A model generated the notes under the pieces. It did no database searches. It was not told the origin of the DNA and worked only from the letters and a program-made list of their open reading frames with translations. A stretch of DNA of 64,000 bases from Enterobacter asburiae (lineage in GTDB: Bacteria; Pseudomonadota; Gammaproteobacteria; Enterobacterales; Enterobacteriaceae): the NCBI GenBank assembly GCA_011754535.1, contig JAAQVN010000001.1, forward strand, positions 496,001 through 560,000, in the 5' to 3' direction. Below, piece by piece: positions 12,474-35,441 of the stretch. Each line of letters starts with the position of its first letter. The first letter of the stretch is position 1. The translations under genes were made by a program, and so were the position numbers.

Positions 12474-12533
12474 TGTGTAGGGACAATAAAGTTGTAAATT
12501 TAAAATGAAAAATGACATTAAAGTTGTATCGCT
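12474..12533 (+). repeat. Left transposon end with two TnsB-type sites
   Basis: After the terminal 8 bp, one 20-bp site occupies 12482-12501 (GACAATAAAGTTGTAAATTT) and a second 12514-12533 (GACATTAAAGTTGTATCGCT). Both share the core found three times at the right end and in Tn7, where TnsB binds. Confidence 0.85.
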
Positions 12534-12718
12534 ATACGGATATAGTTCTTATTTTTCATAAGCTTAGTATTAAGATTAATCTAAACTCTCGATTAATAAA
12601 TCAGCTTTACTGTTTGGAGTCTAACCAGCAACTGATGGCTACAGGGTATGAGATACCTTTGCCAACGTGTAGCGTGCATAGCAAACGTTCTAATTCAATC
12701 TTTGATGGACATGCCTCG

Positions 12719-13009
12719 TCACCATTTTTCCCGTCTGGCCGGAGAAGATTCATATTCGTTTTTCACTTCAGTTATTGGGGCGGAGTGTTGTGTTGAAGAT
12801 AAGGTAAGTCCAACCCCTAACACACAAAAAATTCTAAACAAACGCTCGAAACTGGCGCTGGTAGGATTGGATTCAAGTCGGGCATAGGCCTGCTGTGTAA
12901 CCCCTAATCGTTGAGAAATCTCTTTCTGTGTTAGCCCATTTTCTTTGCGAAAAGCAATCAACATTGGACGTAACTGATTAAGGTGTTTTATTGGGTAAGT
13001 CGTATTCAT
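12719..13009 (-). CDS. XRE-family (HipB-like) DNA-binding protein
   Basis: A 96-residue protein with a central helix-turn-helix of the XRE/HipB type (LTQKEISQRLGVTQQAYARLES, about residues 25-46). HipB proteins are antitoxins and autorepressors paired with HipA kinases, but no hipA-like gene follows; only 185 bases separate the stop from the transposon end. It may be an orphan antitoxin or a plain regulator. A perfect 17-bp inverted repeat 48 bases upstream is a likely operator. Confidence 0.8.
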   Translation of the reverse strand: MNTTYPIKHLNQLRPMLIAFRKENGLTQKEISQRLGVTQQAYARLESNPTSASFERLFRIFCVLGVGLTLSSTQHSAPITEVKNEYESSPARREKW

Positions 13010-13056
13010 TTAAGATAACCGCTGCGCTTGCGTCTAATACTTGCATCTGTAAATAC

Positions 13057-13110
13057 ATTTAACAACGTATAGGGTGTTAAAACAAGAATACAGCCTATAC
13101 GTTGTTAAAT
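13057..13110 (-). promoter_or_regulatory. 17-bp perfect inverted repeat upstream of the XRE gene
   Basis: ATTTAACAACGTATAGG (13057-13073) is repeated in perfect inversion at 13094-13110 with a 20-base spacer. Its position just before the XRE gene suggests a pair of operator half sites for autorepression; a large cruciform is the alternative. Confidence 0.65.
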
Positions 13111-13864: not shown

Positions 13865-14365
13865 TCACCGACGGGGAATGTTTTTGCACAACAACAGCGG
13901 AATGCCGTTCTGCCGGATCAGATAACTCCCGTCGCTCTGCTCCCGGAACTGGTAGATATAATCCACATTTTCAGTGTTTACGGAAAAAGGCAGCAGGTGA
14001 CTGAATGTTTCATGGATATCCTTTGACTGGAATGAGGTTTTATTGCCGGTAAAACGAACATGATAGTCTTCACCTGTTACCTCATACGTAATACCGGAGA
14101 CCAGCTTGACCGGTGTCTGTTCACCTGCAGGTGAGGTATAGTCTCCGCTAATCTGAATGCTGCCTTTTTCCCGGTACAGATAGAGCATCACTTTAGCATT
14201 GAGCCGGTTCTTATTAACCTGGCTGTCAAACGCCGCCATACAGTGGATTACTCTCCCTTCAGAACTCTTTTTTAACTTCAGCAGATGATAAACGGAATAA
14301 CACAATACCAGCAGGCTGAGAGTGCACACTGTTATTCTGATAACCGTAGATAGCCTGAACTGCAT
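13865..14365 (-). CDS. FidL-like inner-membrane protein
   Basis: A 166-residue protein with one N-terminal membrane helix (ITVCTLSLLVLCYSVYHLL) and a periplasmic region. In overall form it resembles FidL, encoded next to the regulator MarT and adhesin MisL on Salmonella pathogenicity island 3. Its function is not known; members of this group follow ToxR-like regulators. The start overlaps the upstream regulator gene by 34 bases, so the two are translated as one operon. Confidence 0.7.
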   Translation of the reverse strand: MQFRLSTVIRITVCTLSLLVLCYSVYHLLKLKKSSEGRVIHCMAAFDSQVNKNRLNAKVMLYLYREKGSIQISGDYTSPAGEQTPVKLVSGITYEVTGEDYHVRFTGNKTSFQSKDIHETFSHLLPFSVNTENVDYIYQFREQSDGSYLIRQNGIPLLLCKNIPRR

Positions 14366-15132
14366 ATTCTTTCAGCCTCATTTTTCCCGTTACATGAAAG
14401 ATAAAACACGCTGTGTTGATTACGGTACGGCGTAATATATCGTTGTGGTACTTGGCTACAATTAGCCGTGATACCCGGCCATATTCTCAGAAGTTGTTCA
14501 ATTTTTATAGCGGACAAAGTTTGCCGTTTATTAAGGTAAACCTGACACCCTTTTTGCGCGCCTGCATAATTATATTCAGCTGTGAAATCATCGTAGGGGG
14601 CCGTACCATATCTTAAGGATGCTACACTAAACGTCACTAATGCAAGGAGAATGAAGACTGCCGTAACCGGGATGGTCAGACGGGACAGCAGAGTTGGAAC
14701 AATCTCCCTCGACATTAAAGTTTTACTGCCGTCACTGTTTGATTCAGGAATTTTTTTATCCAGAGCCGAAACGGCACTGTCAGTAGAGACCCTGACTGTT
14801 ACCGTCATGGTTTCATTAAACCGGAACCCCTGTCTGGGTACGGTAATGATAAAATCGTCATCACTTTCAGCTATCTTGCGGAAGGCCTTACGGGCCAGGA
14901 GTATATTCTGGTACAGGGTATTAGGTGCGACGTCCTTATACGCCTCACCCCAGCCAGCCTTATACAGTTCAGCCTGGCGGACAATATTTCCCTCCGCATC
15001 CAGCAGCGCCTCAAGGCAACGGGCGCAGGGCTCGTTCAGTATTTTCGAGAGATCTGGATGAACCAGACTGGCCAGTTCATTTTGCCCGCTGTGAAAGACT
15101 ACCCTGCCGTCGATCAAATACGTTTTCTTCAT
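14332..15132 (-). CDS. MarT/ToxR-like membrane transcriptional regulator
   Basis: An N-terminal winged-helix domain of the OmpR/ToxR type (about residues 30-105, ending with the wing VPRQGFRFNE) is followed by a linker, one membrane helix (LTIPVTAVFILLALVTFSV) and a periplasmic part of about 95 residues with three or more cysteines. This is the layout of ToxR, CadC and Salmonella MarT, which activates misL from the membrane. The open frame extends to 15318. I prefer the ATG at 15132 (MKKTYLIDG), about 266 residues; an ATG at 15183 is also possible. It overlaps the FidL-like gene and is divergent from the adhesin side, which it probably controls. Confidence 0.75.
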   Translation of the reverse strand: MKKTYLIDGRVVFHSGQNELASLVHPDLSKILNEPCARCLEALLDAEGNIVRQAELYKAGWGEAYKDVAPNTLYQNILLARKAFRKIAESDDDFIITVPRQGFRFNETMTVTVRVSTDSAVSALDKKIPESNSDGSKTLMSREIVPTLLSRLTIPVTAVFILLALVTFSVASLRYGTAPYDDFTAEYNYAGAQKGCQVYLNKRQTLSAIKIEQLLRIWPGITANCSQVPQRYITPYRNQHSVFYLSCNGKNEAERICSSGYLRLSE

Positions 15133-15703
15133 GACTCCCTGCCTGCTGACTGCCTGCCCAAATCTTAGCTTTCCCCGATTCATGGTGCCAGAAATTATTT
15201 CATAACTCTTAAGTGGCTTCAAAAGGGATGGGTAATTTATGTGTAAATTCAGTCGCTTATTTGTTTGTGATCTTAAGTGAAATCTTAACTGTCTTAATTG
15301 AAGTGATGATCCCTTCACCCGTACCGGGCAGATGTTAATATCCGGTCAGACAGAAAAACCCTGGTCACTGCCGGAAAACCCGCTTTACAAGAAGGGAAGG
15401 ACATGAACCTTAAGTAGTAAACACTTTAAAAAAGAAATAATAAGCATAAAAAACTTCATTAAAAAGCAAAGGTTTTTTATTAATTTCATCAATCAAAATA
15501 TTAATAATTCAGGATAAGTATCTGATTATTGTTTATTCTATGGTGTTATTATCTGGTTTTTATTTTTTTATTGGTTTTTTGTTTTTATCAAATTGATTGG
15601 TTTGATATTAGGTTTCGTCTGAAACTATTATGCTGACATGATTCCAACAGTTCGCTGACAGTTATTGCAGAAATGCAGAGCCGGAATATGGAGATATTTA
15701 TTC
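15133..15703. other. AT-rich divergent control region of the adhesin island
   Basis: About 570 bases with no gene separate the MarT-like gene from the second winged-helix gene. The segment 15410-15620 is very AT-rich with long A and T runs, typical of H-NS-silenced promoter DNA in horizontally acquired islands. Promoters for both directions should lie here. Confidence 0.5.
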
Positions 15704-16147
15704 GTGAGAAAATTTGGTTATATTCTGGGAGATGATCGTAATGGTGTGATGGTTCTGCGGGAAAACCGGGTGCTTATCCCCCTTAATAGTCAGAAATTAA
15801 ATCAGAAACATATTTATCTGAGACAGACCATGTTCCGATTACTGGAGTTTCTGCTTGAGAGAGGAAGGTCCGGCCTTCTGCGTGATGAAATCATCATGAG
15901 AGCCGTGTGGGAGGCATATGGGCTGAAATCCTCAGGGCCACGCTTATGGCAGGTCATGAACGAATTAAAGAAAAGGCTCGTCGGTCTTGGTGTCGATGAG
16001 GATTTTATTATGCGTGTGGAAGGGCGGGGCTATATGGTGAATACCGCAGGTTATGAACCTGTTTACATCCGTGCCTCATATGATCGCTTGAGTCGGTTTA
16101 TATTTTCCCGTCAACAGGCTACCGATATGGTCAAGTCAGTAAAATAA
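15704..16147 (+). CDS. Soluble winged-helix regulator
   Basis: About 147 residues, almost all a Trans_reg_C winged-helix domain. The family layout is recognisable: a short beta sheet (GYILGDDRNGVMVL), the recognition region LRQTMFRLLEFLLERGRSGLL, and the C-terminal wing VEGRGYMVN. No membrane helix is present, unlike the MarT-like protein. The frame runs back to a TTG at 15665; the GTG at 15704 with GGAGA nine bases upstream is the better start. It stands 65 bases before the giant adhesin gene and probably regulates it. Confidence 0.7.
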   Translation: MRKFGYILGDDRNGVMVLRENRVLIPLNSQKLNQKHIYLRQTMFRLLEFLLERGRSGLLRDEIIMRAVWEAYGLKSSGPRLWQVMNELKKRLVGLGVDEDFIMRVEGRGYMVNTAGYEPVYIRASYDRLSRFIFSRQQATDMVKSVK

Positions 16148-16212: not shown

Positions 16213-19200
16213 ATGAACGCAATTTATAAAGTGATATTTAACAGAGCGACGGGACAGCCTGTCGTTGTTTCAGAACTGGGTAAAGGTAAAATCAAAAGTT
16301 CCACTAGTAAGTCTATTAAGACGGCTGTTATGTTAATGGCTGCGGCAATTTCCATGCCGTCCTTTGCAACCAATTGCGATCCCACTACTCTTATTTGTAA
16401 ACTTAATAGTTCTTGGTCTGTAATCAATAATTATCAAAAAGGAACTGCATTCATTTCTGACGGTAATAGCTGGGCGGTCAGTGGTGTGGACTTATGGTCT
16501 GGCGCCGGGAAAAGTTATAATTTATATAACAATTTAGATGAAGTAATTAATGCTGGTTATTCAGTGACCTCTTCTGGTGCAATCATTCAACCGGGTGGTT
16601 TAATTACAACGAATTTTAGCTTGAGCACTCCAGGTCAAAAATCTGTAAGTGTGTTTGACCCAATAACACAAGCATATACTTCCATCAAAGTTTATGATTC
16701 AAACTCTTTTTCTGAAAAAAATTCTTACGATTTTGGAGTAGCCACTCCATTTATGGTTCCGAATGTAAACGTGTATGTGGATACTAGATTAGTTGATGTT
16801 AGTAATGGCCATGCAGAAATATCATTGAATAACGATACGTATGCTATTGGTGAATTGAGGAACAGCCATCTAATTAATATCGATGGTCAGAACAATACAG
16901 CATCCGCAACTTTGACTTCTAAAAATAAATTCTTGATGAATCAAGCATTAGAATGGTTGCAAGAAGGAAGTTCGACGGCATTTACTGCAAAGATTAATTC
17001 TTATAAAGGAAATGTTCAGGCTTTCGATGGTAGCAATCATACTGTCAATAATTTGGGCGATTTTAAGAAATATAATGATTGGTTAGTTAAACAAGTTCAG
17101 TTAGGTAATTTAGAATATAAAGATTATGATTCTGAACTAAAAAATGCTTACAATGAAAAAGAAGAGAATTATATTTATTCGATATATCCTAATGGAAGCT
17201 CTTATAATGCATATGGTGACGCGGAGGGTTCGATTATTCATGCCTCGGGAGCTAATGCTTTAGCAAAGATCTCCAGTACCGGTGAGCTCTTTGTTAGTAG
17301 TGGTTCAGCAAATACCATGAAAGTTTTTCAGGCAGAAAATAACGCAACGATTATTAATGATGGCATAGTAATAGGTTCTGGCAGGTTGGTTGACATAACT
17401 TCTGGTGCTTCATTTATTAATAATGGGACTTTGTCTCTGGGTGGGACTAGTGGAACAAAAGTAATTGCCAGAGGGCTTTCAGCATTTCCTGTTTATGTAA
17501 CTGATGCAGGCAGTTCATTTATAAATCATGGTGATTATAATATCGACGCTCGTGCTCTGTACGAAAATAAATCTAGTAACGCTACTACCAATGGCGTTAC
17601 TTTGCTTAATGGGGCTCAAGCTATAAATTATGGAAATATTAATAGTGGTTATTGGGGGAATACAACTCTGCCGGATGAACAGTCCGGTAGTATTCGCTCA
17701 ATTTTAGTCAGAGATGACTCGACATTTTTAAATGATACTAACGGCCATATTCAATTGGGCACAGGAGAGGATGGCCTCACTCACGATTATCTGGGGTCCG
17801 GCAGTATAGCTGTAGAGGTTAGGGATAAAGGCAAAGCAATAAATGCAGGAACTATTACGCTCCGTTCTACCGCTGATGGGGTTATTGGGCTTTATGCTAC
17901 GGGTAATGCTATTACACTTATTAACAGTGGTCTCATTGAAGTGAATTCCGATGGTAATGGTGGAAAATATATTCCTGCTCAAAGTGTTGGCCTTTATTCT
18001 GAGGGGCGGGCGGGCGGTGTTATAGATAATACGGGAACTATTGTTCTGAACGGCGCAAACAATGTCGGCGTAAAGGCTAAGGGGGGAGCGCAAGCTTCTT
18101 CTTCTGGGCTTATCACAGTAAATGCAGCGAGTGGCCAGAATACTCTTAATAACTATGGTGCATGGGTTGAGGGGGTGGGGTCAGTAGTAAATATCGCAGG
18201 TAAAGTTAACTTGAACGGTGATGGTGCCATCGGCGTGCACGCCCGCGACAGTGGTACTATTAACCTGACGAATAATGCCGTCATTACTTTTGTCTCCGGC
18301 AAAAAGCAGATTGGCTATTTTGTTTACGGCGCAGGCGCACAAATCATCAACAGCAGCAGCAGCGTGCAGGATGTGACATCGGATAACTCAGTCTTAATGC
18401 GCCTTGACGGTGGGGCCACTTTTACCGGCAGCGCTACCCAAGGATCCCGGATGGTTGCTTCTGGTCAGGATTCGGTGATTCTAACGGCGACGGGCAAAGG
18501 CACTTCGGTAAGTACCGGTACCTTGGCTCTGGACATTGCCGGGAAGGGGGCGACTGGTGTGCTGGTCGAAGGTGGCGCAACGGGTGTAATTGATGCAGGC
18601 ACAAACTTGCTGCTGAATAATGCCAGCGCCATTGCGGCTATCGCCGACGGAGATGGACACGATATTAGCGGTAAATTTACCAGTAACGAAACCAGTACAA
18701 GACTGAACTCTTCAGCGAACCTGTCCTCAACAAAAGATCAGGTCATCGGCTATATTGCCCGTAACGGGGCCACCCTTGAAAATTCCGGGAATATTCATTT
18801 TTCTGGAAAAAATACAATAGGACTGGAGGTCCGCGATGGTTCCACAGGGACCAACAGCGGCAGCATCACCGTCCAGAATGGTGGGAAAGGTCTGGTTGCC
18901 AGTTCAATCAACCAAAGCACGACAATTAATAATACAGGGGACCTTACACTTAAAGGCGGGAATGATGCTGAACGTACCACGGGAATCCAGGCCTCCGGCA
19001 ACGCTGTTACTGTCAACATGACCGCTGGTACCATCAGGCTCGAAGGCCAGGGGGCTATCGGCGTGGAAGTGACTGATGGTGCCTCTGTGAACCTAGCGGG
19101 TACCGCGTTGCCTGTGTTTGCGGACTCGGCTACCGGCGTCAGCAATCAGATCGCATTCCTGATTTCAGGTGCAGGTTCCACGCTTAATGCCCAGACGACG

Positions 19201-22200
19201 GCCGTGATGGATGCTAATGGAAAGGGTTCCACACTGTTCAGAATCGAGGATGGCGCTTCCCAACAGGGGGTACTGTCTTACAACGTGTCCGGTGAAGATG
19301 GTCGTGGGATCTGGGCCACAGGCGCAGGCACGCTGGTGAACACCGCTGCAGGCAGTCATCTGTCCATTCAGGGGACCGGTGCAAAGGGGATATATGCTGC
19401 AGGTGGTGCCAGCGCAACGTTGTCACAGGGCGTGACTGCGGATCTCACCGGCTCCGGGGCTGTAGTCGGTGTTGTTGACGGAAATGAGTACGACCTTGCT
19501 GGTAGTGTAACCAAAAGCAATACCGGCACGACGCTCACGAACGAGGCCGATATTACCTCCGGGCTCGCCGGTGCTACGGCATTTATCTCGCAGAACCAGG
19601 GCATGCTGGTTAACAAGGGGAATATCGATCTGACCACCGGCACCGGCAATACCGGAATAAAGGTCATCAGCGGACAGTTCGATAATCAGGCCAGTGATAT
19701 TACCGTCAGCGGCGTCGCTGTGGACGTCGAAGGGGCAAACTCGAGCGTACTCAGCACCGGGGGGCGCATTATCGCCACTGATGGTGAGGCTGCTATCCGC
19801 CTGAGTCAGGGAGCCTCCCTGGACTTAGTGGGTAGCGGAATGGGCGTGGTTGAAGGCCGGGGCACGGCGCACGGCGTGTTGCTCGATACCGGTGCCGCAG
19901 GCCTTATCGTCAACGGCGCGCGAATTGATGTAAACGCTGTGGGTGCTAGCGGAAACGGAATTGAAAACCGGGCAGAGATTGCCGGTATTCAGCTGAACAA
20001 CACCACTATCAATGTGCAGGACGGTAAAGGCGTCCGGACATCAGCCACGCTGGCTCAACAGAACAGCGGCACGATTAACGTGGCAGGAAACGGGACGGGA
20101 CTCGCTTTCATGGCTGCGGACGGCGGCATGACCAGTAACAACCTGGATTTATCCAGCTCTTCTGGCCTGACCGTTAATCTCCTTGGCAAAGGCGGGGCCG
20201 GTATTCTGGCCAACACGGCAGACGGTGCAATGGTGAAAACTGCGGTCAACGTGAATGTGACAGGGGCCGACGGCGGTTCCGCACTGGTGGTGAATAATCA
20301 CGCGAACCGGGTTGAACAAACTGGTGTTCTGCGCTCTGCGTCAACCACTTCGGCGGTAGTCGATGCCACGAAGGTCGGCACATTTATCAATACCGGTGCC
20401 ATCATCGCGGCCACAGACACCTCGCTGGCTATGGCCTTTGATGACGGTGTCGATACCGTCATGCGCAATGGATACGGAGGCGTTATCCAGGGGGTTATTG
20501 CACTCAATAACGGCAATAACAGCCTCTACCTCGATGACGCCAGTACGCTGACCGGTACCGCCACTCTGGGGAACGGAAACAACCGCGTCACCCTGACCGA
20601 TACGGCCCGTGCGGACAGCGTGATTGCCGGTAGCGGTGACAACACCTTTACGGTGAAAGGCAAAGGAGCCGTCTTTAATCTCCTCGACGGGGGCACAGGC
20701 AGCAACGACGACCTGGTGTTCGATGCCGCTGTGTACCGTCTGGCCAGTGCGTCAACGCTTCAGAATTTTGAGCGTGTGGCCCTCAAAAATAACTCGCTCC
20801 TGACCCTCGGGGAAGCGCTGGTGCTGACCGACGGGGGGATCGGGGCCGGTGCTGTCGACATCGAACGTGGCAGCGAGCTGGCGGTGAAGCCTTCTGTCAC
20901 GGGAGATTTCACTTTTGACCCGACGCTTACCGGTCAGGGCCTGGTATCGGTCAGCCTCGATTCTTCGCAGTCGGATTTTGCTTTCACCGGCAATACAGGA
21001 AGTGATTTCGCGGGCACCCTGAAACTGGGCACCAGTCATTTCCAGCTGGAAGGCGATAACACGTCTTCACTGACGCAGGCCTCCCTGGTCACCGGGAGTG
21101 AAAGTGTGGTCACGGTCGGTACGGGCGAGCAGCAGCTCGGCGGCCTGTCCTTTGACGGGGGTACCGTTCAGTTCGGAGCTGTTATGCCAGGCGATATCAT
21201 TGCGGACAATCATATCACCACCTCTGCCGTTGGCACGCTCGATATCGGTGGCAAGGGTACGGTTCAGGTCACACTGGGTGGCGGGGTGATTAACCATGTT
21301 CCTGCCAGCCTCAGTAAAAAATCGCTGATGGAGCAGGATGATGCCACCACGCTGGTCCAGCTTGCCGGTGCAGAAGGGGCGGTCAAAGGAACGGGTGGTC
21401 AGCTTAATCTGGTAGATGAAGACGGCAACCTGATCAGCGATGTGCAGCACCTGGACATCGTTCAGGACGGCAACACCGTCGCGAAAGGGACCTGGGATTA
21501 CCAGATGGTAAGCAGCTCCGACGGTATCACCAGCGACGGGCTGTATATCGCCTACGGTCTGAAAGAAGTCGAGCTGATGGGGACGGGCGACAACGCCCTG
21601 ACGCTTGCGGTTGGGCCTGATGCTCAGGGGCTGCAGACCGATCTGCGCGTGAAGGTGACCGGCAATGGCGATCTGTCGGTTGATACCGGCAGCGGACAAA
21701 CTGTGAGCCTGTCGAATGGCGGTAATGATTACACAGGTGCTACCAGTGTAATCAGTGGAACGCTGCGTCTTGATGCCGACAACACTCTGGGGCTGACTTC
21801 AGTCGTGAATGTCGCGGCTGGCTCTGTGCTGGATATAAACGGTTCACGCCAGACATCGGGTGCGCTCAATACTGAGATTGGCAGTCAGGTCATGCTTGAC
21901 GCAGGCAGTCATTTGACGCTCACCCACGCACAGCGTGAGGCTGGCATTAATGATGCCGGGTCCATCGCCGGTGACACCCTTATTGGGGCGGGTGAGCTGG
22001 AGGTGCTGTCCGGTGAACTTCACGTCGATGGTGCTAATACCGACTATACCGGGAATGTTGCCCTGAACGGAGGCGCAAAAACCATGCTTAACGATGTGGC
22101 GGGCCTGGGTAACAGCGGAACGGTCACGATGACGTCAGCTAACGACATCCTGACGCTGAACGACGGTGTCTCTGGTGCGCTGGCGAAAACGCTGGCAGGA

Positions 22201-25564: not shown

Positions 25565-26089
25565 ATGACAAAAGTCAAATATTTAATCTCGTGTATATCA
25601 TCAGCAATTTTTTCGGTTATGTTACTTAGCGGGTGTGATACAGGTGGAGATAAAAAGAAGGTTGGATATATTGACATGAAGGTTGTACTGGCGAAGTCAG
25701 GATTGGCGCGTCAAGAGAGGATATATCTTGAGCATATTGAAAAGTTGCTTAAAGATACTGATAACAAAGCAAAAAATTTGTATGCCACCATTGATGCTAG
25801 AACAGTGAATGTACATCGAGAAGCTGACCAACTGATGTTGTATGAACTGTTGAAGACGGCTCGTCAATCTGCAAGAAATATGGTTATTCAGAAGATTATT
25901 ATGGCTGCGGAGAAGATAAGTGAAAATAATGGCCTGCAGTTTAAACACTATGGTTCGCTGGTCCTCATTTCAGAAGAATATGTAGATTTAACAGAACAGG
26001 TTATTGAAGAACTTAAAGACACCACGGTTAACTTTGGATCTTTACCCAGGCTGTTTAGACAATTTCCTGACAATATAGAAGAAAGTTAG
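25565..26089 (+). CDS. Skp/OmpH-like lipoprotein (second copy)
   Basis: A 174-residue paralogue of the gene at 24188, with lipobox MLLSGC (Cys24) and the matching segments VGYIDMKVVLAKSGLARQE and ADQLMLYELLKTARQSARN. It is coded by much more AT-rich DNA than the first copy, so the two probably were not made by a recent local duplication. The role is as uncertain as for the first copy. Confidence 0.72.
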   Translation: MTKVKYLISCISSAIFSVMLLSGCDTGGDKKKVGYIDMKVVLAKSGLARQERIYLEHIEKLLKDTDNKAKNLYATIDARTVNVHREADQLMLYELLKTARQSARNMVIQKIIMAAEKISENNGLQFKHYGSLVLISEEYVDLTEQVIEELKDTTVNFGSLPRLFRQFPDNIEES

Positions 26090-26196
26090 CCCTTGGCAGC
26101 AGGAGTCATAAGCATTATGTAAATATCCCTTTAATTTATGAGGTGGGACAAGGCGTTACATTCCTTAGCAGTTTTCATGCTTAACAATAAGAAATA

Positions 26197-26688
26197 ATGA
26201 AAAATAAAATACTGGTCAGTGCCTGCCTGATGGGCCTTAAAGTCCGTTATAACGGAAAAGAGAAAGCGTTGATGACTCATCATCTTGAACGCTGGCAACA
26301 GGAGCAGCGCTTGTTGCTTCACTGCCATGAGCTAGCTGCCGGGCTACCTGTTCCGAGACCCCCTGCTGAGATTGTGTCTGCTGATGGTAAAGACGTAATG
26401 TGTGGACAAGCCAGAATAATTGAAAATACTGGAAGGGATGTTACGGAGCATTATCAACTTGCAGCTTGGCTGGCTCTTCGGACAGCACAAGAAGCAGGGT
26501 GCACTGCCGCATTGTTAACTGATGGTAGTCCAACGTGCGGGAGTCAGTTTATCTATAACGGTTGTTTTAGTAATCAGCGTAAATCGGGCATGGGAGTGGC
26601 GGCATCACTGCTCTCCGAGCATGGCATCGTGGTATTTTCAGAAACTCAGGTTGCAGAGCTTGTAAGCTGGATTGAAGAACGGGAATGA
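26197..26688 (+). CDS. DUF523 family protein
   Basis: A 163-residue cysteine-containing protein of the DUF523 family, recognised from the start ILVSACLMGLKVRYNG and the central LLTDGSPTCGSQFIYNG with GMGVAASLL. No function is established for the family; the conserved cysteines suggest metal or cluster binding. It is a common passenger of enterobacterial accessory DNA and has no clear functional link to the adhesin genes. Confidence 0.75.
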   Translation: MKNKILVSACLMGLKVRYNGKEKALMTHHLERWQQEQRLLLHCHELAAGLPVPRPPAEIVSADGKDVMCGQARIIENTGRDVTEHYQLAAWLALRTAQEAGCTAALLTDGSPTCGSQFIYNGCFSNQRKSGMGVAASLLSEHGIVVFSETQVAELVSWIEERE

Positions 26689-26835: not shown

Positions 26836-27500
26836 TGACCTGCCCCCAGTATTAGATACAACCATCAGTTAGTAATGTCGGTTTGTTTACCTTCACATTT
26901 TCCATTCCGCCACCGTGCTGCAAACTCTGATGGCGTCTGATAATTGAGTGCCGAATGTGGACGACACTCGTTATAATCCTGCCGCCAGTCATTAATGATT
27001 TTCCTTGCGTGCACGATATAACTGAACCAGTGCTCGTTCAGACATTCATCGCGAAATCGTCCGTTAAAGGTCTCAATAAATCCGTTCTGCGTTGGCTTGC
27101 CCGGCTGAATTAGGCGCAACTCAACACCATGCTCAAAGGCCCATTGATCCAGTGCGCGACAAGTGAACTCCAGCCCCTGGTCAGTGCTTATCGTCGCCGG
27201 ATAGTCTCGAAACCGTGCAATGCTGCCCCGAATACGCGTGACTTGAGCGCCTGAAATCCCGAATGCGGTAGTAATTGTCAGACACTCCTTCATGAAGTCG
27301 TCCACACAGGTCAGGCACTTGATCCTGCGACCGGTGGCCAGCGCGTCCATGACGAAATCCATCGACCAGGTCAGTTTAGGCACCGCCGGGCGGAGCAGCG
27401 GCAGACGTTCCGTTCCCAGTCCTTTACGACGTCGTCCGGGTTTTACGCCCAGCCCGCTGAGATGATAAAGGCGGTACTGGCATACGCATCCGCAAACTGT
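26836..27500 (-). mobile_element. IS3-family (IS407-like) remnant
   Basis: A terminal repeat TGACCTGCCCCCA begins at 26836. The orfB reading frame extends from 26865 to about 27478 and contains the three DDE residues: D in WSMDFV, D in STDQGLEF and E in GFIETFNG. Upstream residues [21 protein letters not shown] are still in frame before 27383. The 5' half of orfB, orfA and the other end are missing, so the element is dead. Confidence 0.8.
26865..27478 (-). pseudogene. Truncated IS3-family transposase OrfB
   Basis: Carries the C-terminal rve integrase core of an IS3/IS407-group transposase, ending [18 protein letters not shown]. The longest frame with a usable start begins at a GTG at 27383, but homology continues about 30 codons farther. 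Without the N-terminal helix-turn-helix and the OrfA partner it cannot be active alone. Confidence 0.78.
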
Positions 27501-27700
27501 TCCTCACATCTCAGGGACTGATATTGCCAGTTTTACGCGATTCGCGAGGCAATATGCACGTGATCTTCCCCATCCCTTGGCGGTGATTGTCGGCACGTCA
27601 CCATCGACCAAGGGCATCAAAGCCTGGCTATTTCGGGATGGCAGGTACCAGGAGGCAGTGTATACAGTATCCTTGTCGCGGCCTTAACGGGCCGGATTCA

Positions 27701-28245
27701 TCAAAGCTCTTTATGTCTCATCAACTCAAATAGCTCTGCCTGAAAAAGTGCACCACCCAGAGCATTATGACTGGGTCTTCCTCTGGCAGATAAACGCTGT
27801 GTCATAATTGATGATTAGGTTTCAGACCACGTGCAGCCTGTTGCTCCCATAAAGTAAGCCTTGATATCTAATACACTGAAAGCAAAAATATTTTTATCCG
27901 TATACTTATGGAGGTAGTAATTGATAAATGACCAGTCAAAAGGGGTATTCAATCCCGTAAATACCGGCTTCTGGCTTGCCTCAAGGTGAGATGTGAGCCA
28001 CGTGGATAACTGTTTTGCATAGCGTCTGCTGGGTCTATGCCGGTGGTGGCCAGTTCCTGTAGGTCAAATCCCGTCACGGCCAGCGCCTCGGGATAAAAGC
28101 CAGTGCAGTCAGGCTTCAACTCGGCATAGAAACACACGTCGGGCGCATGCATCAGACAGGCCCCAATGGAAAGCATACTAAATAATCCCGGAACCGGGCC
28201 GGATGCTTCAATAGCCACTGAAACAAAAATCTCGTCTGCATTCAT
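27701..28245 (-). pseudogene. Decayed 3'-5' exonuclease (DEDD family)
   Basis: The start MNADEIFVSVAIEASGP matches exonuclease motif I, but the first catalytic aspartate is alanine (VAIEA in place of VDIEA). After PADAMQ, near 28015, the reading shifts frame. The other frame continues with STWLTSHLEASQKPVFTG and FDWSFINYYLHKYTDK, meets a TAA at 27815-27817, and runs on to ELFELMRHKEL at 27701. There are thus three independent lesions, so the gene is clearly dead. Confidence 0.8.
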
Positions 28246-28636
28246 AATCACTCCTGCGATAGAGAGCACTGATATTCGATTTGAAAAAGAAAAAGATACG
28301 CTATTATTATTTGTAAGTATCCCATTTTTAGTTTAAGGCACTAGCTAATGTTTGACTACCTATTATACTGAAGGATATTAAATTAATTAGTCTCAGTATT
28401 CGCTATGCCTGCCAGCAAGCAAAAGTTTTTATTGATTTGCATTATGTATAAAAGTTAACTATCTACTTTCAGAACCAGGCAGAACGTACATTCTACCGAT
28501 TCTAGGAGTTGCAGAATACTTTCACTCAGCAATCCGATAGCCTGAAACTGAATGAATTAAAACAGGTTTTTCTCTTGCTATTTACCTGTGAGTTAATATC
28601 TATCTTATAGTTTTTAAGATGTCGAATTAACAAAAT
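28246..28636. other. AT-rich spacer between cargo and transposition genes
   Basis: About 390 bases with no open frame of interest, following the second tniQ gene. No terminator hairpin with a clear T tract was seen. This is the natural boundary between the transposition module and the cargo. Confidence 0.45.
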
Positions 28637-29653
28637 CTATATTCTTGACTTAGTGCCTGATGAACGCCTTATATTTTGAGGGAAAAGAGAACGTTTTTTT
28701 ATAGGGCATGTTTCAAATTTACAATTACTGCATGAATCCATGCTCCTGAAAATATGTATATGTTCAACAATTTGGTTGGTGTTAATAATGCCGCATGGTA
28801 TGGATGTCTTGACAGCATTTTCTATCCAGAATGATTTAAATGGGGGAAAGTTTTCTTCAAAAAAACACCTGATTATTCTGGTAAGGATAGGGTCTGTTGA
28901 AAGATAGCTTCGACGATACTGTTGTATCGTTTTTTGTGGGCTTCGGTCTTTCCTTACTGACATTTTTGGAAATTCTCCCGGAAATGAAAGGATGAACTTC
29001 TTAATTTCTTTCTTTAAACAATCTGCGATGTATATAAATTCCCCGTTGTCATATGGCAGTGTATTGTATCCGTTTGTCGATATGTACAGGGGGGGAATGT
29101 TTTCCTTTATGGGACCAACAACACTGAGTACACTGTAAGACCCTACAGGATGCTTCCCCCTGAGTATGGTTTTTAACATTTCACAGGGTTTTTCATCAAA
29201 TGTCATTGATGCAATCGTTAAAGGTTTATTATGCGTTATGCATTTTTCAGAATATTGATAATGCCATGATGATTTAAAATAACCATATCCATTTTCCTTA
29301 ATGGACTGTAGTATGCAATCCATACAGTATTTTATATGAGAGATTTTATCTATACCTCCCTTGCGAGGACCCTTTACATAAAGGTTTTTTAAATCTGACA
29401 TATATTCTGTCGGATCGGAAAACATTTTCATACTCTTACTGGCTTGCCATGAGTTTCTGATTAATAAAAGAAAATCATGGTCATTATAACACTTAAAAAA
29501 CTTGGATATATTCTTATTGAGATGGATGGTTTTTCTCCAGCGAGAATTATGACCTGTTACATCTGCATATTGCTCCACACCGTTTATCAGACAAACTCTG
29601 AAGATGAAACTGTGCAGGGTTTCATCTGAATGGTAAGCTATCTTTACTGACAT
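28637..29653 (-). CDS. TniQ-family target-selection protein (second copy)
   Basis: A 338-residue protein with the TniQ start (HSDETLHSFIFRVCLINGV) and the TniQ zinc-finger pattern C-x2-C-x24-C-x2-H (Cys110, Cys113, Cys138, His141), containing SSWHYQYSEKC. A second cysteine cluster (CSNCKFETCP) lies near the C-terminus. TniQ/TnsD proteins recruit TnsC to a chosen DNA site. GAGAAG six bases before the ATG at 29653 favours it over 29668. The protein is shorter than Tn7 TnsD (about 508 residues), so its DNA-binding tail differs. Confidence 0.8.
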   Translation of the reverse strand: MSVKIAYHSDETLHSFIFRVCLINGVEQYADVTGHNSRWRKTIHLNKNISKFFKCYNDHDFLLLIRNSWQASKSMKMFSDPTEYMSDLKNLYVKGPRKGGIDKISHIKYCMDCILQSIKENGYGYFKSSWHYQYSEKCITHNKPLTIASMTFDEKPCEMLKTILRGKHPVGSYSVLSVVGPIKENIPPLYISTNGYNTLPYDNGEFIYIADCLKKEIKKFILSFPGEFPKMSVRKDRSPQKTIQQYRRSYLSTDPILTRIIRCFFEENFPPFKSFWIENAVKTSIPCGIINTNQIVEHIHIFRSMDSCSNCKFETCPIKKRSLFPQNIRRSSGTKSRI

Positions 29654-29785
29654 ATGGGCTTCTCGCATAAAAATATGACATGATAAAAGAGTTCAAGCAT
29701 ACAATAGGAAATGATTCGTTGGCAGCTTTTATTCATATTATGAGTGGTATGCAATAAAATTTTTGAGGAAGTTAATTTTTACAAC

Positions 29786-30649
29786 TCAAACGAGTTCAAA
29801 CTGATTTAAACAATAGAGTAACAGCAGGTACTGGGTGGGCGATTGTGGTGAAGTGCCGTACAATAATGTTTTCCAGAAGGAAATGTTATTTTTTAGTGAA
29901 GGGAACAAGTTTTTACTTGAGTGATCAAGATTTTCTGCTAGATCGTATAGTTTCTTGAATACGGATATGTCTAACTCACCGGTTGGATTTTTTGACAGTA
30001 CAGACTTTATAAATAGCTTAACAAGGGATGAATGACGGTTACTGATAAATTCTGGTGAAGAACTGCATATAAGTTCGAGAATTTGTGAAGAAAACCTAGC
30101 GAATCTATAGTCATCCTCACTGCAGAGAGAGATCCTTTTTCTTTGATGGAGTAGTTTATAGGAATTGATGCCTGATAATCTTGGATACACTATAGAGTTC
30201 AGTCTTACTTTATGACGATTGCAAGTCGTTACTCCTGCGATCTGATGCTGTCGGTGCCAGTACGCAACCCCGAAATGCCTGACATCATGATATGTACAAA
30301 CAGGGCAGTGTTTAAGCGGAGCAGGATGATCTTCCGCATAGGTGGATAATTTACAGAGAGTGTGTAAATTCATGGCTGAAATTGTCAGGTCTTCAAGCTG
30401 CTTTCTGTAGTCTGGCATTGCCCATGCGTAGAGCGGAAGAAGTGTCTGCCGTGTCCAGAGTTCCTGCCCTGACTCAATAGTTTTTTCAGACAATACATTT
30501 AGTGATGTGTTGAGGTAAGGATGTACTGAATGTGTTTTATTATTAAAGAACACCGAAAAAAACTGATTAGCGGTCATGCCATACACTTCCTGTGTTCTCA
30601 CACATCGGCTGTACAGTGTCTCTTCGGGAAGAGCCTGAAGAAGCAGCAT
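29786..30649 (-). CDS. TniQ-family target-selection protein (first copy)
   Basis: A 287-residue TniQ protein starting with LPEETLYSRCVRTQEVYG. Its zinc ligands Cys115, Cys118, Cys143 and His146 have the same spacing as in the neighbouring second copy. It follows tnsC after 44 bases in the same operon. Only the N-terminal TniQ domain plus a short helical tail is present, much like the compact TniQ of other Tn7 relatives. It is expected to link TnsC to a target, alone or together with the second copy. Confidence 0.85.
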   Translation of the reverse strand: MLLLQALPEETLYSRCVRTQEVYGMTANQFFSVFFNNKTHSVHPYLNTSLNVLSEKTIESGQELWTRQTLLPLYAWAMPDYRKQLEDLTISAMNLHTLCKLSTYAEDHPAPLKHCPVCTYHDVRHFGVAYWHRQHQIAGVTTCNRHKVRLNSIVYPRLSGINSYKLLHQRKRISLCSEDDYRFARFSSQILELICSSSPEFISNRHSSLVKLFIKSVLSKNPTGELDISVFKKLYDLAENLDHSSKNLFPSLKNNISFWKTLLYGTSPQSPTQYLLLLYCLNQFELV

Positions 30650-30693: not shown

Positions 30694-32136
30694 TTAATCA
30701 AAGACAGGCGCTATACACAGTAATCCGTACGCAGACAAATGAGCTAAGCTTTTGTTTTCATTTGCAAGTGTTCGGAATGCTGAGGTGTATTTAACCTGGG
30801 ACATGTTTTCTTCAAATGCGTTCATTACCTTCATAGTCTTTTCTGCCAGTTCACTGTGCTGAGGGCGACTCAGATCCCCAAAAACAATGATTGAAGAGGC
30901 CATCTTCTTGTTCACCTTTCCGGTTACTACGGCTACGTTTTTATCATTGCGTACACTTGCTGGTACTGATTTGGATGGGGGAGGTGTAACAGTGATTTGA
31001 GTGCCAGTAAACTCTTCTGAACTGGCTGATAGCCTCGGTACCGCTGAACGTAGTACGGCTTTGTTAATGACCTCATTACCGCTTCCTATCACCATCATTT
31101 GTGCCCTTCTGTAAATCATTTGCGCAACGGACATATTGCCTTTCGAGAGCAAAAAAAGTGTCTCATTGAGTTCCTGTGTTAACGGTGTTTCAACGTTAGT
31201 CCACTGTAGCGGCCAAAGATAGTGGATAAAAGATTGCCAGTCTGTTGTGTTGAAACCCGGAGGGGAAATGTTCATAAATCCCCCCGATTCAGCTCTCCTT
31301 GCGATCCTGAGTTTTTTTGAAAGTGTCTCTTCAAAGGGATGATTACCGCAAAATACGAGTGACACTCCCAGTGAATCAACAATTTCATGAAGAAAATCAA
31401 TCAAGGTTGATTCTCCACCTGTTCTGGAGAATTTAAGTCTTTGCATTTCATCAATCACCAGTACGCCAAGAAATGCAGCTTTGATTCTTTGTGCGATCTG
31501 CCTTGCCAGACCACCATTTCTGCTTGCTGGTTTCGTTGGCTCAAGTCCCATTACATTATCAAGTATGAGAAGAATGGATTCGCAGAGTTCACGAACGCTG
31601 GCATTGTAAGGGCAGTTTACCTTCACCCAGATAACCTGGTCGGAAACCCCGGGGTAAACGCCATTATATTGGGTATGTTGAATGACCTGAGGAAAGTGAC
31701 CAAGAACCTGTTCGAGCATGGTCGTTTTTCCGGAACCACTGATACCCACGATGGTTAAAGTATCGGCGTTAGGGTGAAAATAGCCATCTACGGTTTCAAT
31801 ATCCGGACACTCATCACCATAGTAGTGAAGGTATTGCTGAGTACTGCGTTTTAGCGGGTTTCGAGGGGCGTATCCGTCTCTGATGATTCTGGTCAAATAT
31901 TTATAGCATTCAATGTAGTTAGTCTGTGGGCAACGGAAGTGTTTAATGCGGTCAACGTAATGTTCCCTGACTGACGCTGATTCATTCCAGCGTATAAAAT
32001 CATCCAGTGGAGGAAAGTTACTCATGGCCATTAAAATCTCTGTATCATCCAGCAAGGGTGGTAATGCTTCGATTAACGGGTTTCCCCTATGCTCCGGAAG
32101 TATGGCTTCAGTATATCGTGCAAAGACTTTTCTCAT
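30694..32136 (-). CDS. tnsC: TnsC-like AAA+ transposition regulator
   Basis: A 480-residue ATPase. The Walker A motif GISGSGKTT is at residues 131-139 and the Walker B LVIDEMQ at 226-232, the latter typical of TnsC/TniB proteins. TnsC polymerises on target DNA and passes the signal from TniQ to the TnsA-TnsB transposase. The gene overlaps tnsB by the ATGA junction at 32133-32136. It is somewhat shorter than Tn7 TnsC (555 residues). Confidence 0.9.
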   Translation of the reverse strand: MRKVFARYTEAILPEHRGNPLIEALPPLLDDTEILMAMSNFPPLDDFIRWNESASVREHYVDRIKHFRCPQTNYIECYKYLTRIIRDGYAPRNPLKRSTQQYLHYYGDECPDIETVDGYFHPNADTLTIVGISGSGKTTMLEQVLGHFPQVIQHTQYNGVYPGVSDQVIWVKVNCPYNASVRELCESILLILDNVMGLEPTKPASRNGGLARQIAQRIKAAFLGVLVIDEMQRLKFSRTGGESTLIDFLHEIVDSLGVSLVFCGNHPFEETLSKKLRIARRAESGGFMNISPPGFNTTDWQSFIHYLWPLQWTNVETPLTQELNETLFLLSKGNMSVAQMIYRRAQMMVIGSGNEVINKAVLRSAVPRLSASSEEFTGTQITVTPPPSKSVPASVRNDKNVAVVTGKVNKKMASSIIVFGDLSRPQHSELAEKTMKVMNAFEENMSQVKYTSAFRTLANENKSLAHLSAYGLLCIAPVFD

Positions 32137-34265
32137 TTTTTTTCACCCTTTATATCATTTTGATTGTTTTTTGTGGCCAGCCATTTTTCCTTTTCTTTTG
32201 GACCAGGAAGCAGGGTGATGTTTTCTAATGGCAACTGATGCGTACTATGAACCTTTTCTACCGGTAAAGCCGCGTTTTTCCTTAGTTCTTCTCTTTTGTT
32301 TTCCGTTATGTTCTTTGTCCTGGTGCTATTGTGTGGTTTCAGTGTATTCAGTCTTTGCAGGCCTGTTTCTTGAAGTGTTTCAGAGAATTCTTTTACAATA
32401 TAAGATGACGCAGTGACCGGGGACTTTTCACTACGCAGATCAACCCAGTCGGCGAGGGTGTCAGCATCAAGATGTGGCATACCCTTCAGGATATTACGTT
32501 TTTCGAGCAGAGCATGGCGGGTAAACGGTTTGTTTTTATCAAGCCGGACATAGATGAAGTCCACACAGTTGTCGTCGATACGGGCTTCGCAACTCGATTG
32601 ACCGAAAACACGTGCTACCGAGGCAAGATCCTCCTCGCATTCATAATAGAGATTGTTGTACTGCAGCCCGCCGGGAGTAATGCTTACCCGCTCTGGAGGC
32701 AAAAGCCTAGAAATGACTTCATCCTCCATAATTGTGCGGGCGCTGAATCTGCTGTTTTTCAGACTAATCAGCCAGCTATTCAAGGGGGATATATTAAGGT
32801 CGTGTTCTATCAGGAGTGGATTAATGTAGGCGAGTTCTTTGAAGATGGCCTGGTTGTGCTCCAGAATGGCGAGAATAATCGTTTTTGTCACCTCCTGCAG
32901 CGTCAGGCACGCTCTTGAGGTCGGTACAGGTTCACCTTTCACAATAAGCCCGCCTCTTGTTGATCCGAGAAGGGGGTGAATTGCCTCCCTGTTCAAAATA
33001 CCAAATCGCCTTTCAACGATACTTTTTTTGTCAGCCCTATAGCCGGGAGCAAATTCCAGCGTTGTTATTGGAGTGACGACATCCTGCGGTTTGAGGCCGA
33101 TCATTTCACCGTTGTCACAAACCAGTTTTACCGGCACGTGAGAGCAGGGCCAATCCCTTTCGGAGATGTTAATACCAAATAACCTGCAAAACTCTTTCTT
33201 GGGCATGAAACAGTTGGCCAGTGCCTGTCGGGCTGCCCGCCAGGATGCATGGTAAAGAGAAACATGAACGCCGGTTACCATTCTGGTCGCCCGGTCTACA
33301 ACGGTATATATTGTTGGTCTGCCAATAACATTAGTTTTGTTCAGGCTGGAAACCAGATGAACATCTGCGACAGTTGCATCAATCTCAAAAACATCTCCAG
33401 GCAGGGTACTTGTGTTTGCTGTGGAGCCAAGGCGAGCTCGTTTGTTAAGCATAAAATTAGATTTAGTTGATCGTGCACGTATCCTTTTCTCCTGAGGAAT
33501 GCGTTTTTTCCCCCAGTATCTGAATTGCCTGAGTGAGGGGATGCAGGGAGCCTTATTTGCTGCTCGGGAAACCTCGATTTCATCGCGGAAAAAGTCTTTC
33601 AGATATTCTTCATAAGTACGGGCTAAAGAAAAGCCACCGACCTTCAGATAATATTTTTTTATTGTCCTGATAATATTTTTTTTGTCTTCGTTTTTCAGTA
33701 TATAAGTGCTGGCGCGTTGCATCGGTAAAACACGATTTTTCTTTTTTTTGCCCAGCGGGATTGTGTCCGGATTGCGTTCTTTGCCGGGGGCGCCGCTACG
33801 GGAATAGGCTGGAAGTAATGCATAAATATTTTGGCCGTACCGCCAGTATCGTGCCAGAAGTAGTCTCAGATGCTGGGGGTTTACACCGGCATTTGAAGCA
33901 TGGCGTGTTAAGATGGGTGAACGCAGAGACGAAGTAAAATCATAGAGAAAATTGCCCTCCTGGATAATGGGTAAAATTAAATTGTAATTTTCATCTCTTT
34001 TATTTTTGCTTTTCTGATCGAGGCTGTCTTCATCAACCAGCATGTATAGCGGAAGGGCATAGGTGGTGCGAATGACTATGCGGGTTTTAACAAGAAGTAT
34101 GAACCGCCGGAGAGAAAAAAAGAATGGCTTGTTTGCTCGGTTGTCCTGAAGTTCGAACAGAATGATGGTATCCGTATCACTATATATGCCGAGTATGCGG
34201 TATAAACCGGTCTTCAGCACATCTGTGTCATTTGTTGTCCAGACACTATTCAGGGTTATTTCCAT
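32133..34265 (-). CDS. tnsB: TnsB-like DDE transposase
   Basis: A 710-residue transposase (Tn7 TnsB has 702). The central rve domain has the catalytic triad Asp296 (DVFEIDATVAD), Asp384 (LVCDNGE) and Glu418 (SIVERRFG). N-terminal helix-turn-helix regions should bind the repeated 20-bp sites in both ends. It joins the 3' ends to the target while TnsA cuts the 5' ends. It overlaps tnsA by 10 bases and tnsC by four, showing translational coupling. Confidence 0.92.
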   Translation of the reverse strand: MEITLNSVWTTNDTDVLKTGLYRILGIYSDTDTIILFELQDNRANKPFFFSLRRFILLVKTRIVIRTTYALPLYMLVDEDSLDQKSKNKRDENYNLILPIIQEGNFLYDFTSSLRSPILTRHASNAGVNPQHLRLLLARYWRYGQNIYALLPAYSRSGAPGKERNPDTIPLGKKKKNRVLPMQRASTYILKNEDKKNIIRTIKKYYLKVGGFSLARTYEEYLKDFFRDEIEVSRAANKAPCIPSLRQFRYWGKKRIPQEKRIRARSTKSNFMLNKRARLGSTANTSTLPGDVFEIDATVADVHLVSSLNKTNVIGRPTIYTVVDRATRMVTGVHVSLYHASWRAARQALANCFMPKKEFCRLFGINISERDWPCSHVPVKLVCDNGEMIGLKPQDVVTPITTLEFAPGYRADKKSIVERRFGILNREAIHPLLGSTRGGLIVKGEPVPTSRACLTLQEVTKTIILAILEHNQAIFKELAYINPLLIEHDLNISPLNSWLISLKNSRFSARTIMEDEVISRLLPPERVSITPGGLQYNNLYYECEEDLASVARVFGQSSCEARIDDNCVDFIYVRLDKNKPFTRHALLEKRNILKGMPHLDADTLADWVDLRSEKSPVTASSYIVKEFSETLQETGLQRLNTLKPHNSTRTKNITENKREELRKNAALPVEKVHSTHQLPLENITLLPGPKEKEKWLATKNNQNDIKGEKK

Positions 34266-35089
34266 TGCTCAGATACCTTATGGTCACAGGTGTTGCTCAG
34301 CACACGTAACACTCCAAGTTCAAGTATAGGCGTGGTTAAATCAACCTGGATGAATTTTCGGGCAATGAGTATCTGGATAACCGTCATAATATCGCCGTAT
34401 TCGACATTAAATTTCCTGGCAAGAGAAGAACATACCGCTTCCATTATGTAGTCTCCCGGCAGTAACGCGGATGCCACTTCCTGACAGGGTAAATGCCCAT
34501 GACAAGTGTTATCCATTCTTATTGCTGATGTCGCCCACGAGATATTTTTACTTATGATTCGATTGAGTTCTGAGCCAATATAGACTTTAAATTCGATATC
34601 ATGTAGAGCCCAAAAAAGACGCTCAATCTCTAGCTTTTCAGCAACACGTAGAGTAGGCACCCCATCGGGTTTCACTGCAAATGCCTTATATTTTATTCCG
34701 CCGCCAGGCTCTTTGACGGTCAGGAGAAAATCGGTAGTCATTACATAAAGAACCGGGGGGCCACTTACGCCTATGACAACAGGGTGTTTCACAGCAATGT
34801 GACTGGCAATTTTTTCTGTAAGATTCAGGGGGAATAAGGGGAACTGTTCACGAATATCAATAACTGAATCATTAAATTCAGCCTGATAGAAGAAGTCACT
34901 TTCAATAATGGACATTAAGTGATGCGCACGCATGGTTTTTAGACCAAATACAACCGAACGATTGCCATGAGATTTTACATCCTGAACTCTTAACCAGGGC
35001 TGATAGTCCTGCATATGCCCGGACCCCACGCCTTTACTCAGAGCCTGCTCATAATCCTGATAGGACTTAAGCCTCCTTCCTCTGCTCAT
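34256..35089 (-). CDS. tnsA: TnsA-like endonuclease
   Basis: A 277-residue protein, close to Tn7 TnsA (273). The restriction-endonuclease-like site is visible as Glu63 (IIESDFF), Asp120 (VMTTDFL) and Lys140 (FAVKP). TnsA cuts the non-transferred strands, so transposition is cut-and-paste, without cointegrates. The open frame extends to a TTG at 35221, but the ATG at 35089 (MSRGRRLKSY) gives the family length and places the glutamate at the same number as in Tn7. It is the first gene of the operon next to the right end. Confidence 0.9.
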   Translation of the reverse strand: MSRGRRLKSYQDYEQALSKGVGSGHMQDYQPWLRVQDVKSHGNRSVVFGLKTMRAHHLMSIIESDFFYQAEFNDSVIDIREQFPLFPLNLTEKIASHIAVKHPVVIGVSGPPVLYVMTTDFLLTVKEPGGGIKYKAFAVKPDGVPTLRVAEKLEIERLFWALHDIEFKVYIGSELNRIISKNISWATSAIRMDNTCHGHLPCQEVASALLPGDYIMEAVCSSLARKFNVEYGDIMTVIQILIARKFIQVDLTTPILELGVLRVLSNTCDHKVSEQWK

Positions 35090-35282
35090 GATCTGTATTA
35101 CCGCTATGTAAGTCAGCTGTACGCTGCGTTCAGTGAACGTAACCCGAATCTGAAGCATTGACCTTACAGCTACAGTATCCAAGGATCCTCTTGCTTTACA
35201 GGTGATAGGGACGAGCAACAAGTAGAAATCAAATGAATGAGTTGTAAGTAGGCTGCAGCATTCGGACGATATTGATGTACTT

Positions 35283-35363
35283 AAGTATACAACTTTAATG
35301 TCATTTTGCGAGGTTAGCGGTACAACTTTAATGTTAGCGGTATAACTTTATTGTCACATCACA
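35283..35363 (-). repeat. Right transposon end with three TnsB-type sites
   Basis: Three 20-bp sites in one orientation lie at 35336-35355, 35316-35335 and 35283-35302. The outer two touch each other and a 13-base gap separates the third. The terminal 8 bp close with CACA. Tn7 also packs its right-end sites more tightly than its left. They sit in front of tnsA and may let TnsB repress its own operon. Confidence 0.88.
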
Positions 35364-35434: not shown

Positions 35435-35441
35435 GGTAAGT

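Follow-up and report, generated by a model that had tools for sequence, protein, structure and literature searches.

How does a Tn7-like transposon come to occupy the gap between two divergent genes, and which of its proteins could find that gap? The question is raised by an element in a 64,000-nucleotide stretch of Enterobacter asburiae DNA (the window), where it separates qorB from ytfH. The element spans positions 12474–35363 of the window, i.e., 22,890 base pairs (bp) from left end to right end. We consider it probable that it is a transposon of the cut-and-paste kind, from an Enterobacteriaceae clade that branched off the yhiN-homing (Tn6230-type) family and, with changed guide proteins, now homes to the qorB–ytfH gap. 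This proposal builds on its ends and target duplication, empty sites in relatives, recurrence in two genera, intact machinery, its place in a TnsB tree, the loss of the TnsD C-terminal region and the lack of any other gene common to both insertions, all read directly from the sequences. Attachment-site change in Tn7-like elements is an open question for which this element is a useful case: between two related clades the guide proteins differ and the transposase is retained, and the new site is no gene end but the conserved intergenic gap of a divergent gene pair.

The element, its ends and its empty site

The left end (TGTGTAGGGACAATAAAG) begins at 12474 and the right end (TGTGATGTGACAATAAAG, minus strand) terminates at 35363. 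With up to two mismatches allowed, TGTGNNNNGACAATAAAG matched the window just twice; both matches were exact and coincided with the two ends (100 shuffles gave a mean of 0.35 matches, and five of them gave at least two). A TnsB-like 15-mer, GACATTAAAGTTGTA, occurred seven times at the same tolerance, compared with 0.11 expected. Five copies lie at the element ends, i.e., at 12482–12496 and 12514–12528 in the left end (12474–12528, plus strand; spacing 32 bp) and at 35341–35355, 35321–35335 and 35288–35302 in the right end (35288–35363, minus strand; spacings 20 and 33 bp). The close-set sites are those of the right end, which faces ytfH, and the left-end sites are widely spaced. The remaining two copies start at 14711 and 25673; the former (14711–14725, one mismatch) lies within the cargo region, distant from either end. 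Copies of TCTCC at 12469–12473 and 35364–35368 form the target duplication, and the complement of the first, GGAGA, is the ribosome binding site of qorB. TGT/ACA ends, repeated TnsB sites and a 5 bp duplication are hallmarks of Tn7-like elements.

Names of the closest proteins point to Enterobacter as the host genus. The ytfH-side flank was matched in 38 of 40 sampled genomes of this genus, the window's own genome included, and 29 of the 37 other matched genomes came as loci. All 29 loci were uninterrupted at the site. The two flanks had an overlap of 5 bp, equal to a single target copy, in 24 loci as aligned, and in all 29 when the alignments were extended to the flank ends. The letters TCTCC themselves stand at the empty site in 24 loci and differ in the other five. 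By a strict pattern the gap measured 77 bp in 26 loci and 76 bp in two, with one unparsed, and joining the window's flanks with one TCTCC likewise gave 77 bp. A preliminary description of this DNA had called the element complete, with base-precise ends and perfect TCTCC copies, and had predicted empty sites of about 84 bp in related genomes. Matching ends, TnsB-type sites, duplication and empty sites bear this out, and removing the element leaves 84 bp between the start codons of qorB and ytfH. We are almost certain that element and attachment site are real.

The transposition machinery is intact. tnsA (34256–35089, minus strand) encodes 277 amino acids (aa) from its ATG and matched the Pfam TnsA-like N-terminal family; the C-terminal model stayed under the cut-off. 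TnsA most likely begins at this ATG (35089) and not at the TTG at 35221, as relatives align from the ATG. Its residues E107, D164 and K184, numbered in a 321 aa open reading frame (ORF), align with the catalytic E63, D114 and K132 of Tn7. tnsB (32133–34265, minus strand; 710 aa) matched no Pfam family, and its D296, D384 and E418 align with the catalytic D273, D361 and E396 of Tn7. The product of tnsC (30694–32136, minus strand) is a 480 aa AAA ATPase (Pfam AAA_22/TniB) with Walker residues G131–K137 and D229–E230. All these residues were invariant in 43 TnsA, 43 TnsB and 32 TnsC alignment rows, which include Tn7 and some identical sequences. The heteromeric TnsA–TnsB transposase and the TnsC ATPase with a TniQ-family protein are thus those of a Tn7-like element, in agreement with the earlier reading of intact tnsA, tnsB and tnsC with visible catalytic residues. 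The host genome has a single TnsB match, inside the window.

A second insertion and kinship with yhiN elements

A related element (locus L002) lies in the same gap in Buttiauxella massiliensis. Its proteins are 73% (TnsB), 72% (TnsC), 72% (TnsA), 57% (TniQ1) and 46% (TniQ2) identical to those of the window. It spans 24,364 bp, has different cargo and is oriented as in the window, with ytfH adjoining the tnsA end and qorB the opposite end. All ten other Buttiauxella loci read were empty (12 genomes searched, 11 matched including the carrier), and seven of them read TCTCCTGTGGG. In the occupied copy the ytfH side reads CCTGT, and on the qorB side TCTCC precedes TGTAGAG. Two readings fit this: the target was CCTGT and one TGT of an adjoining pair has disappeared, or it was TCTCC and the other junction is short of three bases. 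Under either reading the two insertions lie at most 3 bp apart. Because a relative with different cargo was found in the same gap, in the same orientation and within 3 bp, we regard the gap as a recurrent attachment site, seen in two genera and in two cases only. Among 50 loci compared, ytfH stands beside tnsA only in these two, and no third qorB–ytfH insertion appeared in overlapping draws of 295, 392 and 334 genomes of the family, 61 of the genus and 394 of the order. The preliminary description did not know the site as an attachment site of the Tn7 family; correspondingly, no report linking Tn7 with qorB or ytfH, or naming their gap as such a site, was found in the open-access literature, a coverage that mostly excludes subscription papers.

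Could both copies descend from one old insertion inherited by Enterobacter and Buttiauxella? The TnsB identity of 73% is near that of the host QorB proteins (74%), as such descent would have it. However, the relatives read are empty, i.e., all 29 Enterobacter and all ten Buttiauxella loci, which makes vertical descent very unlikely; moreover, the two elements may have inserted 3 bp apart and have no cargo gene in common. Slightly less probable still are chance landings in two genera by a low-specificity pathway of the plasmid type. Relatives with 53% TnsB identity do occupy other locations, namely plasmids and three yhiN-free chromosomal places, but two insertions that agree in orientation and lie at most 3 bp apart in genomes of about 5 Mb would, by our estimate, be a coincidence of about one in a million.

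The three chromosomal places belong to nearly identical sil-type relatives (L101, L102 and L103; TnsB 53% identical to the window's). Judged by eye, one adjoins a transporter-like gene, another lies in a prophage-like region and the third interrupts an ATPase-like gene. This scatter would fit the activity of a second pathway of lower specificity.

An element homing to yhiN is the closest described type. The yhiN-targeting Tn7-like element has been named Tn6230 (PMC11406308, PMC10121019), and a sequencing study reports the move of a pco/sil element into the yhiN–yhiM interval of a laboratory E. coli (PMC8417528). In the review, the molecular details of the yhiN family are called unknown (PMC11406308). 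A YhiN (HI0933-like) ORF adjoins tnsA in 29 of the 50 loci compared (Pfam check of three), some of the 50 being overlapping pieces of one genome and some coming without flank; tib- or sil-bearing strains of E. coli are among the 29. In a TnsB tree of 36 distinct rows, for which the program gave a long-branch warning, the qorB pair are sisters (support 100/97). An E. coli yhiN/sil clade stands next to them (100/100 for both together), and yhiN-inserted elements branch outside. By transposase phylogeny the qorB pair is hence nested among yhiN elements, and it follows that the site changed. yhiN was probably the older site on this tree, and the switch would very probably have gone together with the truncation of TnsD described below. 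The window element itself is not inserted at the 3′ end of yhiN; the one yhiN match of the host genome lies at 4.53 Mb.

Tn6230-type elements (E. coli tib and sil islands, Vibrio, Yersinia, Shewanella and Photobacterium, with close kin on plasmid R478) have the same order of TnsABC genes. They also resemble the window element in having ACAATAAAG-type ends and a duplication of 5 bp (by eye ATTGC for the tib island of E. coli), with a TniQ2-related second protein in several of them and autotransporter cargo in the tib island. TnsB of yhiN-side loci is 31–54% identical to the window's (up to 55% over part of one), and 53% in the E. coli yhiN element. In contrast, they insert at the yhiN 3′ end and have a TnsD of about 520 aa with C-terminal matches to TnsD and helix-turn-helix (HTH) families (two checked), whereas the window element occupies the qorB–ytfH gap with a TnsD reduced to a 287 aa core.

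Tn7 itself is more distant. The TnsABC catalytic residues and the TGTG...GACAATAAAG ends, as in locus L017, are alike, but TnsB identity is only 29%, and Tn7 takes glmS as its target by means of a full-length TnsD and also employs TnsE (PMC11406308). TnsE was not named among the Pfam and NCBIfam matches, with no search aimed at TnsE itself. The Tn7017 branch and other dual TniQ/TnsD elements likewise have two TniQ-family genes with tnsC, and this branch is mostly without Cascade (PMC10293859). One of the two proteins usually exceeds 400 aa there (PMC10293859), whereas both are small in the window (287 and 343 aa). In Tn6022, which has TniQ and TnsF at comM, TniQ is as we read PMC10293859 paired with a partner and has no long DNA-reading extension of its own. 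That partner is TnsF (PMC10293859), whereas the qorB elements have no third selector in common. A more distant Tn7-like relative from the window's own genus (L104 in genome G311; TnsB 39%) has a 476 aa TnsD-like ORF and neither yhiN nor ytfH beside tnsA.

Guide proteins and target recognition

The gene for TniQ1 (29786–30649, minus strand; Pfam TniQ) encodes 287 aa. TnsD-like ORFs of 23 other loci measured 517–526 aa in 15 cases and 494, 488, 488, 476, 318, 263, 215 and 110 aa in the other eight, where some short ones are cut by contig or piece ends and the two 488 aa ORFs also match TnsB. Two full-length TnsD proteins that were checked have a TniQ core followed by a TnsD-family region. Short TniQ1 homologues were found in 13 database clusters; together with the window's protein, all 14 rows span 282–291 aa and stop where the TnsD extension starts. 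Enterobacter mori, Enterobacter sp. BIDMC 26, SGAir0187, E. bugandensis, E. ludwigii and Salmonella are represented among the clusters, and Yokenella through a TniQ2. Moreover, the structure model of TniQ1 superimposes on Tn7 TnsD(1–318) over nearly its whole length with a template modelling (TM) score of 0.76. By alignment and model, TniQ1 is the core of a TnsD with its C-terminal TnsD/HTH region lost. Of the two tniQ genes earlier described as intact, both are present, but this one has kept only the core.

TniQ2 (28637–29668, minus strand; 343 aa) stays just below the Pfam TniQ cut-off. Its sequence retains the TniQ zinc residues alongside four additional invariant cysteines, C217, C313, C316 and C321. 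The top eight Foldseek matches of its model were all TniQ or TnsD, though none attained an E value of 0.001. TniQ2 is basic, with an isoelectric point (pI) of 9.4 and a net charge of +20, and is 25–33% identical to the second protein of several yhiN elements, where that protein stands beside TnsD.

The two qorB elements have only TnsABC, TniQ1, TniQ2 and the ends in common. Beyond these proteins, the sole ORF match between them covers 20 residues (E value 0.001); neither a common third selector nor, apart from the ends, a common noncoding stretch was found. Since nothing else is held in common and neither cas genes nor a third selector were found, TniQ2, with TniQ1, is our candidate for reading the site. 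We propose that TnsA and TnsB would cut and join the ends and TnsC would connect them to the target. TniQ1, its DNA-reading C-terminal region gone, would act towards TnsC as an adaptor, and TniQ2, by itself or together with TniQ1, may recognize a block on the ytfH side about 17–73 bp from the insertion point. Such recognition would explain why the right end faces ytfH. The role of TniQ2 as target reader we put forward tentatively.

RNA-guided homing, with an element-borne guide and host Cascade, would be suggested by weak PADLOC matches of TniQ2 to type I-F TniQ models (best E value 5e-6). It is nevertheless the least likely of all the alternatives. A Pfam scan of 17 element ORFs gave no cas family, host cas genes not having been searched for, and the two elements have no noncoding stretch in common besides the ends. 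The longest exact match between element and target flanks was 13 nucleotides, as in 20 shuffles (11–14). Neither the Cascade genes nor the CRISPR array of a type I-F3 CRISPR-associated transposon were seen, repeats having been checked in three sub-regions only.

The proposed recognition region is a conserved block of the ytfH–qorB gap at 35385–35441, 17–73 bp beyond the duplication on the right-end side. Its identity between Enterobacter and Buttiauxella is 0.88, compared with 0.66 for qorB codons 1–60 and 0.76 for ytfH codons 1–60. In 41 sequences including one of E. coli, 37 of its 57 positions are invariant, and the E. coli qorB–ytfH gap keeps 0.81 of the block. A 26-base core of the block occurs once in the host genome at up to three mismatches. 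TnsD of Tn7 has its footprint on attTn7 at approximately +23 to +58, and the distance of the block suits this footprint by analogy. In Tn7-like elements, the end with overlapping TnsB sites appears to lie nearest the recognized sequence (PMC11406308).

The preliminary description had named the qorB ribosome binding site as the site. This is indeed the landing place, kept on the qorB side by the duplication, but probably not the recognized sequence, given that close-set TnsB sites and conserved block both lie on the ytfH side. Could the first codons of qorB be read instead, with the left end proximal to the attachment site? In both genera only about 10–15 bp separate the insertion from the start codon of qorB, and the side that is read varies among Tn7-like elements (PMC11406308). 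However, qorB codons 1–60 are the less conserved flank (0.66 against 0.88), the left-end sites are widely spaced, and in the yhiN relatives it is the tnsA-side end that adjoins yhiN. We hence regard recognition on the qorB side as doubtful, if the strongest of the alternatives considered here.

Alternatively, TniQ1 and TniQ2 might read no DNA at all and instead recruit TnsC by attaching to a host protein that occupies its operator in the gap, either YtfH or another factor. Both TniQ proteins lack a large C-terminal extension, the qorB elements have no additional selector gene in common, and the landing place is a gap beside a regulator gene. Furthermore, a published survey regards a small TniQ as typical of elements with a further target selector (PMC10293859). 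On the other hand, binding of YtfH to the block is an assumption, and the basic TniQ2 could itself bind DNA. Homing by a small TniQ pair that docks on YtfH at its own operator, with neither a TnsD DNA-binding domain nor RNA, would amount to transposition guided by a host transcription factor, and we think it unlikely. We know of no case of host-protein docking of this kind.

Some points weigh against our proposal that TniQ2 reads the ytfH-side block of a recurrent site. Recurrence rests on two insertions at the DNA level. TniQ2-like stretches occur in yhiN elements too, also farther along in L009, L014 and L015, so that the presence of TniQ2 alone does not mark the qorB site; none was seen in the available parts of L003, L012 and L013. 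Because relatives of TniQ2 extend to these yhiN elements, we rate TniQ2 as reader somewhat less likely than not. Finally, genomes with an empty site have the conserved block too, and its conservation is for this reason at least partly driven by the host. It could mark a stable landmark for a possible reader, the reading itself being only proposed.

With the proposed homing to the gap, the target reader should be one of the two small TniQ proteins or a host factor. Both TniQ proteins are of a size suited to structural work, and for programmable insertion, a field that builds on small TniQ adaptors, the element would provide a natural CRISPR-free example.

Cargo and host genes

The largest cargo gene (16213–24120, plus strand) encodes a 2635 aa type Va autotransporter adhesin of the AIDA/MisL-like kind, with extended signal peptide (ESPR), autochaperone (AC_1) and barrel (TIGR01414, 392.8 bits). 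The nearest E. coli relative of the element likewise has an autotransporter adhesin, TibA. Upstream, 13865–16147 holds o166, for which no Pfam family was found, and two ToxR/CadC-like winged HTH proteins (Trans_reg_C; 14332–15318, minus strand, and 15665–16147, plus strand). Two OmpH-like proteins (below the Pfam cut-off), a LuxR-type regulator and a 2-thiouracil desulfurase family protein, assigned with Pfam, follow at 24188–26688 (plus strand).

Between this adhesin-side cargo and tniQ2 lie a transposase fragment with an integrase core (26865–27383, minus strand; Pfam rve_3 and rve), presumably of IS3 type, and a relic of the tail of an operon resembling a cyclic oligonucleotide-based antiphage signalling system (CBASS). 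The relic (27475–28321) consists of the C-terminal 70 residues of Cap3 together with a 3′-5′ exonuclease whose frame is broken. It is 88% identical to E. coli DNA neighbouring genes for a nucleotidyltransferase and a HesA/MoeB/ThiF protein, and PADLOC labelled the region Effector/Exonuclease. The names Cap2, Cap3 and CBASS for the E. coli operon are those we presume to apply. An HTH regulator gene near the left end (12722–13009, minus strand; Pfam HTH_3) is 56% identical to an HTH gene beside the same E. coli operon. Because relic and HTH gene match one E. coli operon and its neighbour, the element probably once carried defence genes, as far as such remnants tell. The cargo had been described as an adhesin island instead of defence genes; the adhesin with its regulators agrees with this, and the CBASS-type remnant and the HTH gene do not. 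Defence genes are found in many Tn7-like elements (PMC8649781). The cargo of the Buttiauxella element (L068/L069) includes ORFs of 381 and 382 aa, which we take to be MetK-like and cyclopropane-fatty-acid-synthase-like, respectively.

As for the host genes, qorB (11614–12462, minus strand) keeps its reading frame and translation signal because the 5 bp duplication re-creates its ribosome binding site, i.e., GGAGA ahead of the ATG. The native upstream region of qorB stays with ytfH, now 23 kb away, and the left end showed no outward-facing consensus promoter; expression of qorB is therefore probably altered by the insertion. ytfH (35442–35828, plus strand) encodes an HxlR-type regulator (Pfam HxlR).

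Eight matched Enterobacter genomes lay outside the 29 loci read, and two of these, G320 and G322, were looked into. Both have an unrelated operon in the same qorB–ytfH gap (L060, about 1170–4950, and L061, about 1400–5790, respectively), with no tns match. By eye this islet resembles an scs copper-tolerance operon, and it has a second copy, of about 90 bp, of the ytfH upstream region beside qorB.

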